Below the pieces are notes generated by a model. It was not told the origin of the DNA. It was given only the letters and a program-made list of their open reading frames with translations, and ran no database searches. From Natrialba taiwanensis DSM 12281 (GTDB taxonomy: Archaea; Halobacteriota; Halobacteria; Halobacteriales; Natrialbaceae), in contig NZ_AOIL01000049.1 of assembly GCF_000337595.1 (NCBI RefSeq), forward strand, positions 152,817 to 201,848: a stretch of DNA of 49,032 nucleotides, in the 5' to 3' direction. Shown here piece after piece: positions 36,114-40,892 of the stretch. Made by a program: the position numbers and the translations under genes. The number at the start of each line of letters is the position of its first letter. Position 1 is the stretch's first letter.

Positions 36114-36929
36114 TCAGTCACTCGCCGTCTGAAACGACAGGTCGAGCGACGGCGCGGAATTGGTAAGTGACCCCATGGAGATCACGTCGACGCCCGTGGC
36201 GGCGTAGTCGGCGACGGTTTCGAGCGTGATTCCGCCGCTCGCCTCCGCCAGCACGCTCTTGTCGTCGAGTAGCGAGACCGCCTCGCGGGTTTCCGCGGGG
36301 GACATGTTGTCGAGCAGGACGATATCCGCACCGGCCTCGGCGGCTCGGGGCGCGTCACCGGCGGTCTCGACCTCCACGTCGAGTTTCGTCGCGAACGAGG
36401 CCCGCTCGCGAAAGTGTTCGACGGCACCCTCGAGCCCCATCTCCGCAATGTGGTTGTCCTTCACCATGACCATGTGCGAGAGGTCAAGCCGGTGGGTGTC
36501 GCCGCCGCCGGCCACCACGGCGCGCTTCTCGAGTCCGCGCAGGCCGGGCGTGGTCTTCCTGGTCGCGGCGATCCGCACGTCGTCGGATTCCGTTCGGGCT
36601 TCCTCGACAGCTCGGCGAGTTCGCGTCGCGATGCCCGAGGCGTGGCCGGCGAGGTTGACGGCGACGCGCTCGCCGCGGAGCACGTCGCGGGCCTCGCCCT
36701 CGACGGCAAGGAGTTCGTCGCCGGCATCGACCCGTGTACCCGTCTCGAGTCGGTCCGTCACGGTCACGCCGATGAACTCGAAGACCGCCGCCGCGGCCTC
36801 GAGTCCCGCGACGGTGCCGGCCTCCTTGGCGACGAGTTCACCGGTCGTCTCGCCGGGGACCTGGTTCGTCACGTCGTGGTGGCCGACGTCCTCGCGGAGC
36901 CAGCGCTCGATTTGTGCGTCGGTGATCAT
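36114..36929 (-). CDS. nadC: Carboxylating nicotinate-nucleotide diphosphorylase
   Basis: The 271-residue enzyme converts quinolinate and PRPP to nicotinate mononucleotide, CO2 and pyrophosphate. EDVGHHDVTNQV at 13-24 is the N-terminal start of the family, GERVAVNLAGHASGIAT near 86-102 and IAATRKTTPGLRGLEKRAV near 119-137 hold active-site Arg/Lys residues, GGGDTHRLDLSHMVMVKDNH follows, and VEVETAGD, VLLDNMSP and EASGGITLETV carry the barrel's phosphate and substrate sites. All expected motifs are present and the length is usual. It is the last gene of the nadA-nadB-nadC operon, six bases after nadB. Confidence 0.95.
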   Translation of the reverse strand: MITDAQIERWLREDVGHHDVTNQVPGETTGELVAKEAGTVAGLEAAAAVFEFIGVTVTDRLETGTRVDAGDELLAVEGEARDVLRGERVAVNLAGHASGIATRTRRAVEEARTESDDVRIAATRKTTPGLRGLEKRAVVAGGGDTHRLDLSHMVMVKDNHIAEMGLEGAVEHFRERASFATKLDVEVETAGDAPRAAEAGADIVLLDNMSPAETREAVSLLDDKSVLAEASGGITLETVADYAATGVDVISMGSLTNSAPSLDLSFQTASD

Positions 36930-36935
36930 CGGTGC

Positions 36936-38453
36936 TCAATCGTTCGCCGTCTGCTCCGGCGCTGGCTCGTCTTCGACGACGGAGTGACACCCCACCGACT
37001 CCGGATTCTCGCCCGCGGCGCGCGCGATCAGCAGCGCGACGACGCTCGCGTTCCGGAGTTCGTACAGGTCCCGCGCCGTCCGGGTGCGGATGTAGGCGTC
37101 CACCTCGCCCTTGAGCCGCCGGAGGACGGCACCCGCGCGAGCGATTTCGTCGGGGTCGCGCTCCAGCCCGAGGAACTCGTCCATCGTCCGCTGGAGGCGC
37201 GTGAACTTCTCGGCGGCGAAGCGCTCGGGAAGGTCGGGATCGCGATTGCGCAGGTCGGGTGCTTCGACGATCTCGGGTTCGGCTCCGGCTGTGGCTGCAT
37301 CCTCGCCGGCCCGCAGCCCCCAAACCAGTCCCTCCAGCAGACTCGTACTCGCCAGTCGGTTCGCGCCATGGACACCCGTCCGTGCGCACTCGCCAACGGC
37401 GTAGAGCCGGTCGAGCGACGTGCGCCCGCGGTCGTCGACCGCAACGCCGCCACAGAGGAAATGCTCGCAGGGCGCGACGGGAATCTCGTCGCCGTCGATC
37501 CCGCGATCGCGACACGTCTTGGCGATGCCCGGGAACTCGTCGCTGAACTCGAGCGGGCTCACGTCGAGGACGACCTCACCGGTCGCCTCACGCTCGGCTT
37601 CGACCGCGCGAGCGACGACATCCCGCGGCCCGAGTTCAGCGTCGGGATGGTAATCGGGCATGAAGCGCTCGCCGTGGGCGTTCCGGAGGAGCGCGCCCTC
37701 GCCGCGCAGCGCTTCGGAGAGCAGGAACGGGGTTTCGCCTGCGTACGCGGTCGGATGGAACTGGACGAACTCGAGGTCGGCCACGTCCGCGCCGGCCAGT
37801 GCGGCCATGGCGATGCCGTCGCCGGTGGCGTCGTCGGGGTTGGTCGACCGACTGTAGAGCGCGCCGATGCCGCCGGTTGCGAGGATCGTCGTCCCGGCGT
37901 AGATCGGCGTTCCAGTTGCGTCTTCGTCGCTGACGACGCCGTGAACGCGGCCTTCGTGGGTAATCAGTTCGAGCGCAGCCGTGTCCTGTCGGACCTCGAT
38001 GCGCTCGTGATCGTCGACGTGGTTCAGGAACGGGCGCAGGATGTGGGTGCCCGTCGCCGCGTCGACGTGGAGGATGCGCCGCTCGGAGTGGGCCGCCTCG
38101 CGGGTGTAGTCGAGTTCACCGGCAGCCGTCTCGTCGAACTCGATGCCGAGAGTGTCGATGAGCACGTCCTCGACCGCCTCGTCGGCGGTTTCGATGAGGA
38201 CGTCGACGGCGTCGGGGTCGGCGGTGTCGTCGCTGGCTGCGATGATGTCTTCTTTGAGCGCGGCGGGGTCGCCGCGGGTGGTCGAGATGCCGCCTTGCGC
38301 CCAGTCGGTGCTGGCGTCGTCGGGTCGCTCGGCTTTGGTCAGGAGCAGGACTTCGGCACCCGCACGGGCCGCTGCGAGGGCGGCCGAACAGCCGGCGATG
38401 CCGCTGCCGACGACGAGTACGTCCGTGGTTTCGGGGGTGTCGGTAGCTGTCAT
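36936..38453 (-). CDS. nadB: L-aspartate oxidase
   Basis: The 505-residue FAD enzyme oxidises L-aspartate to iminoaspartate, the substrate of NadA. VLVVGSGIAGCSAALAAARA at 13-32 binds FAD, TDWAQGGIS is the family's second motif, and FVQFHPTAYAG, LRGEGALLRN, PCEHFLCGGVAVDDRGRTS and GANRLASTSLLEGLVWG follow, with the active-site His and Arg of the succinate dehydrogenase/fumarate reductase group. The frame stays open more than 200 codons upstream across nadA, but ATG at 38453 begins just before the FAD motif, 11 bases after the nadA stop. The C-terminal helical domain (YIRTRTARDLYELRN) is complete. Confidence 0.95.
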   Translation of the reverse strand: MTATDTPETTDVLVVGSGIAGCSAALAAARAGAEVLLLTKAERPDDASTDWAQGGISTTRGDPAALKEDIIAASDDTADPDAVDVLIETADEAVEDVLIDTLGIEFDETAAGELDYTREAAHSERRILHVDAATGTHILRPFLNHVDDHERIEVRQDTAALELITHEGRVHGVVSDEDATGTPIYAGTTILATGGIGALYSRSTNPDDATGDGIAMAALAGADVADLEFVQFHPTAYAGETPFLLSEALRGEGALLRNAHGERFMPDYHPDAELGPRDVVARAVEAEREATGEVVLDVSPLEFSDEFPGIAKTCRDRGIDGDEIPVAPCEHFLCGGVAVDDRGRTSLDRLYAVGECARTGVHGANRLASTSLLEGLVWGLRAGEDAATAGAEPEIVEAPDLRNRDPDLPERFAAEKFTRLQRTMDEFLGLERDPDEIARAGAVLRRLKGEVDAYIRTRTARDLYELRNASVVALLIARAAGENPESVGCHSVVEDEPAPEQTAND

Positions 38454-38464
38454 CGGTACGATCG

Positions 38465-39598
38465 TTAGATGTCGAGCATTCGGTCGAGTGCGACCGTCGC
38501 GAGTTCTTTTTCGGCGGGCGCGACTTCGATTACGTTGCGTTTGCGGCCGGCGACGAGTTCTTCGAGCACCCAGGTGAGGTAGTTGGGGTCGATCTGGCGC
38601 ATGGCGTTGCAGTCCATGCAGGCGTCGCCGCAAAGCGGCAGGACGTTCACCTCGGGATGCCAGCGCTGGAGGTGGTTCGTCAGGTGGATTTCGGTGCCGA
38701 TGGCCCACGTCTCGCCAGGATCGGCGGTGGCGACGGTGTCGCAGATGGTCGCCGTCGAACCGACGCGGTCGGCGGCCGCGACGACTTCGCGGCGGCACTC
38801 GGGGTGGACGACGACCCGCGCGTTCGGATGCTCGTCGCGAACCCGGTCGATGTGATCCGTACGGAACCGCTCGTGGACCTGACAGTAGCCGTCCCAGAGG
38901 ATGATGTCGCTGTCTGCGACTTCCTCGGCATCCTTGCCGTCGGGGTCCCAGGGGTCCCACTCCGCGATGTCGTCTTCCATGCCTAGCCGGTGGGCGGTGT
39001 TCTCCCCGAGGTGCTTGTCGGGTAGGAACAGCACTTTGTCGCCGCGGTCGAACGCCCACTCGAAGGCGCGGTGGGCGTTCGAGGAGGTACAGACGAGGCC
39101 GCCCTGGCTCGCACAGAAGGCCTTCAGATCGGCGTAGGAGTTCATGTACGTGATCGGAATGATGTCGTCGTCCGGCGCGGCCGCCGTGATTTCGGCCCAG
39201 GCGGCGTCGACCTGCAGCGCCTCGGCCATCCCCGCCATCGGACAGGAGGCCTCCATGCTCGGGAGGATCACCGTCTGATCGTCGTCGGTGATGATGTCCG
39301 CGCTCTCGGCCATGAACGTCACGCCGCCGAAGATCACGTACTCGGCGTCGGCTTTGGCGGCTTCCTTCGAAAGTTGGTAGGAGTCGCCGACGAAGTCCGC
39401 GTGCTCGACGATTTCGCGCCGCTGGTAGTTGTGTCCGAGGATCACGACATCGTCGCCGAGTTCAGCGAGCGCGGCGTCGATGCGCTCCGTTCGTTCGCTC
39501 TCTTCGAGATCCCGATACCGTGGTGGAAGCTGTTCGAGCGAGTCATATTTGAACAGACTCAGATCGGTTTCCAGCTCCGTTGTTTCCATCGTGACCAT
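38465..39598 (-). CDS. nadA: Quinolinate synthase
   Basis: The 377-residue enzyme condenses iminoaspartate with dihydroxyacetone phosphate to quinolinate and needs a [4Fe-4S] cluster. Likely ligands are C119 in MEASCPMAG, the Cys in HPECRREVV and one in LCGDACMDCNAMRQ. ILGHNYQRREIV near 53-64 and FVGDSYQLSKEA near 69-80 are typical substrate motifs, with FGGVTFMAESADI and YMNSYADLKAFC following. An upstream ATG at 39628 is in frame, but ATG at 39598 has GGGAG just before it and fits a transcript start predicted about 17 bases upstream. The gene leads the nadABC operon, preceded by a dyad. Confidence 0.94.
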   Translation of the reverse strand: MVTMETTELETDLSLFKYDSLEQLPPRYRDLEESERTERIDAALAELGDDVVILGHNYQRREIVEHADFVGDSYQLSKEAAKADAEYVIFGGVTFMAESADIITDDDQTVILPSMEASCPMAGMAEALQVDAAWAEITAAAPDDDIIPITYMNSYADLKAFCASQGGLVCTSSNAHRAFEWAFDRGDKVLFLPDKHLGENTAHRLGMEDDIAEWDPWDPDGKDAEEVADSDIILWDGYCQVHERFRTDHIDRVRDEHPNARVVVHPECRREVVAAADRVGSTATICDTVATADPGETWAIGTEIHLTNHLQRWHPEVNVLPLCGDACMDCNAMRQIDPNYLTWVLEELVAGRKRNVIEVAPAEKELATVALDRMLDI

Positions 39599-39636
39599 TG
39601 TGTCTCCCAGTAGGTATACTAGCCACATACCGAGCT

Positions 39637-39646
39637 ATTGAATAAG
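39637..39646 (-). promoter_or_regulatory. TATA-like box of the nadABC operon
   Basis: Minus-strand CTTATTCAAT is centred about 43 nt before the ATG at 39598, which predicts a leader of about 17 nt carrying the GGGAG Shine-Dalgarno sequence. Confidence 0.45.
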
Positions 39647-39655
39647 TTTTTCCTT

Positions 39656-39670
39656 CAATACCTGGTATTG
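39656..39670. promoter_or_regulatory. 15-bp dyad upstream of nadABC, candidate operator
   Basis: CAATACC and GGTATTG are a perfect 7-bp mirror around a T. The dyad lies ten bases upstream of the TATA-like box of nadABC, where a regulator would block or recruit TFB. NAD synthesis genes are often under such control. It is also within the 208-base divergent region shared with the Gfo6-type gene. Confidence 0.5.
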
Positions 39671-39806: not shown

Positions 39807-40892
39807 ATGGAACTCGAACTCGAGAGGATCTTCGACGAGTTCACCCGGCGCGACTGGGAGCGCGAGCCGGTAGAGGGAACGGTTCGGCTCGCAATCGTCG
39901 GCGTCGGCGGCTTCGCGCGAAACCGGGCGATTCCGGCAATCGCCGAGAGCGAGTACTGCGAGTCGACGCTGCTGGTCACCGGCTCGCCCGACCAGCGACG
40001 GTTATTGGCCCAGACGTTCGATATTGGTCACGTCATCACCTACGACGCCTTCCTCGCGGGTTCCCACACCGAGGCGTACGATGCGGTCTACGTCGCAACG
40101 CCGAACGCGCTACACGGGCGCTACGCGGCCGCTGCAGCCGACCTCGGCACCGGCAAGCACGTCATCTGCGAGAAGCCGCTCGAAACGACGCCCGATCGCG
40201 TCCAGACGATCATCGACGCCTGTGACGACGCCGGCGTGACGCTGATGACGGCCTACCGCCTCCAGACCGAACCCGCCGTCCGTCGCACGCGCGAACTCGT
40301 CTCCGCGGGCGTTATCGGCGATGTCGTCCAGATCCACGCCGGATTCTCGCACCCGCTGTTGGCCGCGACCGGCCCTGATACCTGGCGGCTCGATCCTGAA
40401 CTCGCCGGCGGGGGCGTGCTCGTCGACCTTGGCATCTACCCGTTGAACACGACGCGGTTCATCCTCGGCCGCGATCCGACCGGCGTGTACGCGACGACGG
40501 CCTCGAATACTGATCCCGTCTCGACCGGCGTCGACGAACACGTCACCTTCCAACTCGAGTTCCCGACCGACGCGACCGCGTCCTGTACCGCGAGTTTCGA
40601 CGCGCACGCGAACAGTTGGCTCGAACTGATTGGAAGCGGCGGCGTGATTTCGATCAGATCTCCGTTTGGCGGGGTCGTCCCTCAGGAGATAGTCGTCGAG
40701 AGCGGTGATGTTCGCATGGAACACACCGGGCCGCCGGTCGACGAGGTCCGCGAAGAGTTCGATTACTTCGGCTACTGCGTGCTCACTGGCGCGACGCCAG
40801 AACCCGACGGCGCGGACGGTCTCATCGACACCCGTGTGATCGAGGCGGCCTACGAATCGGCAGAGACCGGCTGTCGCGTCGACCTCGAGTGA
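39807..40892 (+). CDS. gfo6: Gfo/Idh/MocA oxidoreductase, D-xylose 1-dehydrogenase (Gfo6) type
   Basis: The 361-residue protein has an N-terminal NADP-binding Rossmann domain (VRLAIVGVGGFARNRAIPAI near 24-43), the ICEKPLETT motif with the conserved Glu-Lys-Pro of the family, AYRLQTEPAVRR, and the C-terminal domain with GGGVLVDLGIYPLNTTRFIL carrying the catalytic-type Asp/Tyr region. It resembles the haloarchaeal NADP-dependent xylose dehydrogenase first described in Haloarcula and Haloferax, which starts oxidative pentose breakdown. No other pentose-pathway gene is in the window, so another sugar or polyol is possible. ATG at 39807 is chosen because the 34 codons before it are basic and not conserved. 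It diverges from nadA. Confidence 0.75.
   Translation: MELELERIFDEFTRRDWEREPVEGTVRLAIVGVGGFARNRAIPAIAESEYCESTLLVTGSPDQRRLLAQTFDIGHVITYDAFLAGSHTEAYDAVYVATPNALHGRYAAAAADLGTGKHVICEKPLETTPDRVQTIIDACDDAGVTLMTAYRLQTEPAVRRTRELVSAGVIGDVVQIHAGFSHPLLAATGPDTWRLDPELAGGGVLVDLGIYPLNTTRFILGRDPTGVYATTASNTDPVSTGVDEHVTFQLEFPTDATASCTASFDAHANSWLELIGSGGVISIRSPFGGVVPQEIVVESGDVRMEHTGPPVDEVREEFDYFGYCVLTGATPEPDGADGLIDTRVIEAAYESAETGCRVDLE

Follow-up and report, generated by a model that had tools for sequence, protein, structure and literature searches.

A conserved palindrome upstream of nadA and of transporter genes as the candidate operator of a haloarchaeal NAD regulon, probably read by HFX_2341-family proteins

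How do haloarchaea control de novo NAD synthesis, and does an operator stand before the nadABC genes of Natrialba taiwanensis DSM 12281? We analysed a stretch of 49,032 nucleotides from this organism (the window), for which a preliminary description had proposed that a perfect dyad, CAATACC-T-GGTATTG (CAATACCTGGTATTG), is the operator of an NAD synthesis operon. Both the dyad, exact at 39656-39670 (no strand assigned), and the operon were confirmed. Pfam matches identified, downstream of the dyad on the minus strand, nadA (quinolinate synthase, 38465-39598, NadA 318.8 bits, start at 39598 inferred), nadB (L-aspartate oxidase, 36936-38459, approximate start, assigned from a FAD_binding_2 match of 257.6 bits and its operon position) and nadC (quinolinate phosphoribosyltransferase, 36114-36929, QRPTase_C 198 bits). 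A Gfo/Idh/MocA oxidoreductase gene (39807-40892, plus strand, GFO_IDH_MocA_C3 102.2 bits) is divergent, and a TATA-like box of nadABC probably lies at about 39640-39648 on the minus strand, judging from its position and A+T content. In the portions available of the literature on haloarchaeal NAD regulation and CARF regulators (few subscription journals covered; PMC8305020 included), we found no description of such an operator or regulon.

We aligned the upstream regions of 80 haloarchaeal nadA loci, retained from a set of 292, and found that what they share is a 25-bp palindrome, TATTGAA-N11-TTCAATA. In the window it reads TATTGAAGGAAAAACTTATTCAATA (39636-39660, minus strand, 14/14 arm bases) and overlaps both the right half of the dyad and the probable BRE/TATA of nadABC. 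At least 12 of the 14 arm bases are present in 64 of 81 nadA promoters, window included. When bases were counted over 80 promoters (L076 excluded), G5, A7, A13, T17, T20, C21 and A22 were invariant, A6 and T19 were kept in 79, and position 18, a point of overlap with the TATA region, was A or T in 79. The palindrome stops 38-50 bases short of the NadA match start in all promoters but that of L076 (66 bases; poor match), and in two deep lineages (L161, L162) it abuts the probable start codon. That an operator of nadABC lies here, as proposed, is well supported, but in the form of this palindrome; the dyad itself is conserved almost nowhere, and its right arm, the TATTG of which forms part of the palindrome, is half of the true operator. 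We noted as well that many nadA loci of the Natrialbaceae (e.g. L008-L016, L021-L023, L069) carry a GTATTC-containing run, often TGGTATTC, some 15-25 bases before the operator, which may be a second site.

Genome searches were made with a model (R1) built from 47 of the 49 distinct nadA sites, the degenerate sites of L068 and L084 being excluded. R1 had matches in 56 of 61 genomes of the family (E <= 1) and in 138 of 194 genomes of the order (E <= 0.5); these and all other genome counts were taken without regard to phylogeny. NadA was found in 134 of the 194 genomes, and 124 of these have, among the matches listed, one R1 match each within 150 bp upstream of nadA, while the ten nadA genomes without a match among those listed still contain degenerate copies of the palindrome. 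The 150 R1 matches listed for the order comprise 124 at nadA, 15 at a gene pair for a DUF3311 protein and a sodium:solute symporter, 3 at a gene for an MFS transporter and 8 elsewhere. Four of these last eight were inspected and stand at none of the three gene kinds; they are weak matches (G175:C7:14175 in L139, G175:C5:139791 in L140, G011:C1:3403506 in L147 and G086:C4:127042 in L138) and probably due to chance, that of L140 standing before a solute-binding-protein-like gene. A combined model (R2), run on 39 genomes at E <= 0.3, returned 33 distinct sites in 26 of them (14 at nadA, 18 at the symporter, 1 at the MFS gene). Since many of the sites used to build R2 came from genomes later searched with it, the informative part of this result is that no other gene was matched. 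Of the 13 genomes without an R2 match, four lack the candidate regulator described below and nine carry it.

The palindrome thus occurs at two further kinds of gene, the DUF3311-symporter pair and the MFS transporter gene. In the host, its second-best copy (one mismatch, C17:53035-53059) precedes DUF3311 and the symporter. The expectation that the same operator would recur at niacin genes was borne out for the palindrome, in so far as these are candidate transporter genes, but not for the dyad, whose one exact copy in the host genome is that of the window. Of the 194 genomes, 153 have the symporter, 26 the MFS protein and 16 neither; only G145 combines the two, with the weakest MFS match of all 26. 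Such near exclusion, to which a value of 1e-19 attaches that ignores phylogeny, is expected if the two are replacements for one job. The symporter genomes found by R1 include eight without nadA (G068, G073, G083, G105, G136, G141, G196, G223), as would be expected if such genomes import an NAD precursor.

NiaP is an MFS transporter of niacin. The MFS protein of the proposed regulon matches the MFS family, and its N-terminal parts (200 residues only) match aromatic-acid/H+ symport and SV2 subfamily models far below their cut-offs; these models we take to be the neighbourhood of NiaP, to which the protein would then bear a resemblance. The nearest model to the piece of the symporter that was scanned is PanF, also far below cut-off, and the term DUF3311 was not found in any of the literature matches listed. 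We propose that the DUF3311-symporter pairs are NAD-precursor transporters.

From 50 transporter promoters with at least 12 of 18 matching bases we derived a refined operator consensus, TATTGAAGA-N7-TCTTCAATA, in which G5, A6, G8, T17, C18, T19 and C21 are each present in at least 46 promoters. A TATA-like A+T-rich peak follows the 25-mer by about 28-33 bases (27 symporter and 22 MFS promoters). At the transporter genes the operator therefore precedes the core promoter, and control there could be in either direction. In the symporter (DUF3311) promoters, but not in those of the MFS gene, bases 8-12 after the 25-mer form a conserved TCGAA-like run, 26 of 27 having G at position 10. Its distance from the TATA-like box is too great for an ordinary BRE, and the run may represent an additional half-site.

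Which protein might read this site? The best candidate belongs to the HFX_2341 family (NF051475; also PF19810), to which we assign the host protein (570.6 bits) and that of L176 (560.3 bits), both above the curated cut-off of 500; the Pfam matches are HFX_2341_N and DUF7776. The family occurs in 188 of the 194 genomes, and its gene adjoins all three kinds of target. The host copy, at C17:55749-56657, comes one gene after the symporter; those of L171, L172 and L174 follow the symporter directly; that of L176 and the MFS gene diverge, the operator lying in the gap; and those of L077, L078, L079 and L258 stand beside nadABC. Where both genes are listed, the regulator match starts no more than 10 kb from that of the symporter in 86 of 116 genomes, and no more than 5 kb from that of the MFS gene in only 8 of 22, with 150 places listed per table (188 and 153 genomes matched). 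A structure predicted from three sequences has low confidence (mean pLDDT 59.9), yet every one of its 20 PDB matches at E <= 0.001 is to a CARF protein (Cam1, Can2, Csm6, Csa3), which points to a CARF-type Rossmann domain together with a winged helix. A sequence search of the PDB with the regulator returned nothing significant (best E 0.094).

Other candidates were considered. NiaR, NrtR, NadR and NadQ are bacterial NAD regulators; they likewise act as repressors over NAD synthesis and niacin uptake, but their protein families are unrelated to that of our candidate. The 3H domain (PF02829) of a NiaR-type regulator was not found in the host genome, in a search whose controls matched B. subtilis and T. 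maritima. An ArsR-like protein with an HVO_1552-type C-terminus, encoded divergently from the host DUF3311 gene (L086, 386-1396, minus strand), was set aside: of the loci read, only those of the host and of genus g3 (L144-L146, where similar proteins occupy the same place) showed it, and others have dnaG or different genes there. When open frames of the nadA flanks were clustered, wrong-frame ORFs dominated and no HTH family appeared among the top clusters listed.

Loss of the regulator provides a further line of evidence. Six of the 194 genomes (G069, G072, G079, G091, G108, G179) lack the HFX_2341 family even at E 0.001, and in none of the six does the transporter promoter carry the operator. 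Their best sites have 8-10 of 18 bases, which is the random level: 13 of 3000 random stretches reach 12, these being mostly coding windows of 400 bp and the promoters having been scanned over 420-440 bp. Among regulator-bearing genomes, at least 12 of 18 bases were found in 28 of 34 symporter promoters and 22 of 22 MFS promoters (50 of 56 together), the symporter promoters below 12 being those of G032, G017, G044, G074, G114 and G165 (G007-type weak sites aside). The symporter promoters were hand-picked, covering those of genera g31 and g38 that had not previously turned up via the operator, plus others across the families; promoters found via the operator (L129-L148) were excluded, and one MFS genome that was counted (G150) had been listed earlier by R1. 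The Fisher value of 1.5e-5 likewise ignores phylogeny. The losses are spread over three genera, and every other member tested in these retains the operator: in g31 and g38 it is kept in 9 of 9 others (L131, L135 and L137 had been found earlier via the operator), and in g39 in 11 of 11 MFS promoters. They amount to fewer than six independent events, since the promoters of G072 and G108 are near-identical.

Taken together, four observations on genome sequence, namely conservation of the palindrome, its almost exclusive occurrence at genes of the proposed regulon, the gene linkage and the missing transporter operator in genomes without the regulator, make it probable that a small haloarchaeal NAD regulon has the 25-bp palindrome as its operator, the reader most likely being an HFX_2341-family protein. 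Against this count the nadA operator kept by G079 (see below), the six regulator-bearing symporter promoters below 12 of 18, the nine regulator-bearing genomes without an R2 match and the small share of MFS genes close to the regulator. The regulon would comprise nadABC together with DUF3311 and the sodium:solute symporter, or with the NiaP-like MFS transporter instead, and the substrate of these transporters would be niacin or another, related NAD precursor. The family would repress NAD synthesis and control niacin uptake, in either direction. At nadA, where the operator lies over the BRE/TATA, the simplest reading is that a regulator dimer on the two half-sites would cover these elements and block TBP/TFB. 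NAD synthesis would in this way stop when NAD is plentiful, and the CARF domain would bind a nucleotide tied to NAD status. This proposal offers a testable answer to the question of how haloarchaea control NAD synthesis.

The least improbable alternative, which we nevertheless regard as unlikely, is that the operator is real and is read by another, unlinked transcription factor, the HFX_2341-family gene being only a conserved neighbour. Haloarchaeal gene order is widely conserved in any case (dnaG adjoins the symporter), and one genome without the family, G079, keeps the operator at nadA; its nadA gene lies on a 166-kb contig and may have been acquired recently. It also fits this alternative that nine unlinked promoters of the regulator gene carry no operator (best score -2.3), a result on which autoregulation of the gene was rejected. 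Against a mere neighbour stand the linkage of the family to three different kinds of target gene and the absence of the operator from all six transporter promoters of genomes without it, in three genera.

The only paper we found that names HFX_2341 describes it, in the text available, as crr, "CRISPR-related repressor", of Haloferax mediterranei (PMC11434293). According to that text, its over-expression lowers cas transcripts and its deletion changes many genes in rich medium; in the deletion mutant cas genes show no significant change by RNA-seq and rises by qPCR, and the coenzyme category is, as the sentence reads, on average about 11-fold higher (PMC11434293). The authors state there that the effects may be indirect and that the protein also occurs in CRISPR-free species, and they ask for its binding sites and ligand (PMC11434293). 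The published protein and our candidate belong to the same family, and the former is reported to be a repressor whose loss raises coenzyme genes (PMC11434293). A primer sequence printed in that paper, used to look for H. mediterranei, had no match among 392 genomes. Its published role, however, is CRISPR-related or global: the main text gives no operator, regulon or NAD link, and a term search of it for NAD, nicotin- and nadA returned nothing (PMC11434293).

These data raise the alternative that HFX_2341 is a global or CRISPR-linked repressor answering cyclic adenylates, for which NAD genes are a minor target. The breadth of the deletion effect and the response of cas to over-expression would fit such a role, as would the likeness to Csa3 noted in the available text (PMC11434293) and the CARF fold of our model. 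Like the candidate, the Csa3 proteins, CRISPR regulators of Thermoproteota, combine a CARF fold with a winged helix, and the model matches Csa3 structures both alone and with cyclic tetra-adenylate (2wte, 6wxq). In sequence, however, the family falls well short of Csa3 (TIGR01884 14.2 and 16.5 bits against a cut-off of 60.2; Csa3_N 14.8 against 27 in L176), and Csa3 regulates CRISPR/cas genes whereas the targets proposed here from sequence are NAD genes. The near confinement of the operator to NAD-related genes, the absence of a significant cas change by RNA-seq and the presence of the protein in CRISPR-free species in the published text (PMC11434293) make a primarily global or CRISPR-linked role unlikely as well.

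A bolder step from the NAD regulon, for which we rate the chances a little short of even, is that HFX_2341 is a CARF factor with a housekeeping role, sensing NAD or an NAD-pathway nucleotide and setting NAD synthesis and niacin uptake throughout the haloarchaea. Such a ligand is suggested by the targets being NAD genes, and would occupy the pocket in which relatives bind cyclic oligoadenylates. If so, the reported effect on CRISPR would be indirect, and the reach of CARF sensors would extend beyond antiviral signalling. A candidate site, regulon and ligand class would also be at hand for a widespread regulator that, in the literature available, has so far been studied only as a suspected CRISPR regulator.

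It is very unlikely that the element is simply a conserved core promoter (BRE/TATA) without a dedicated regulator. Such a reading agrees with its overlap of the expected BRE/TATA place of nadA and with a BRE-like TATCGAAGG run that is also present at the host DUF3311 promoter. The same palindrome, however, stands upstream of the core promoters of the transporter genes, with the TATA-like peak 28-33 bases later; in L161 and L162 it directly adjoins the start codon; and the palindrome models match essentially no other promoters.

That the dyad itself is the operator, as first proposed, can scarcely be maintained despite its perfection in the window, its partial copies in N. asiatica and Natrialba aegyptia and a run resembling it at the DUF3311 promoter of the host, because a recognisable copy exists in only 2 of 80 orthologous nadA promoters, both of close Natrialba relatives (NadA is 98% identical between the host and these two species), and conservation across these promoters rules out the 15-bp dyad as a conserved operator. 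At the same place, N. asiatica has 13 of the 14 arm bases and N. aegyptia 11; L057, L074 and L077 also have 11 at this offset, largely through the common TATTG half. The best match within 150 bp is 14/14 in the window, 13/14 in N. asiatica and at most 11/14 in the remaining 79 promoters, N. aegyptia among them. With up to 3 mismatches allowed, the dyad is the sole match in the window, where 0.38 would be expected from shuffling (at least one match in 34 of 100 shuffled windows). Its left arm, CAATACC, which is shared in part with N. aegyptia and N. asiatica only, is a lineage-specific addition and at most a third half-site in Natrialba. The run at the host DUF3311 promoter, CAATACCGGCTATCG, resembles the dyad with 2 mismatches and may point to such a third half-site. 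In that promoter (L086, 1500-1560; G000:C17) the operator is followed by CAATACCGGCTATCGAAGGAAAGTTATTA, an arrangement like that of the dyad plus the nadA promoter, which is possibly a third half-site or a common BRE/TATA arrangement.
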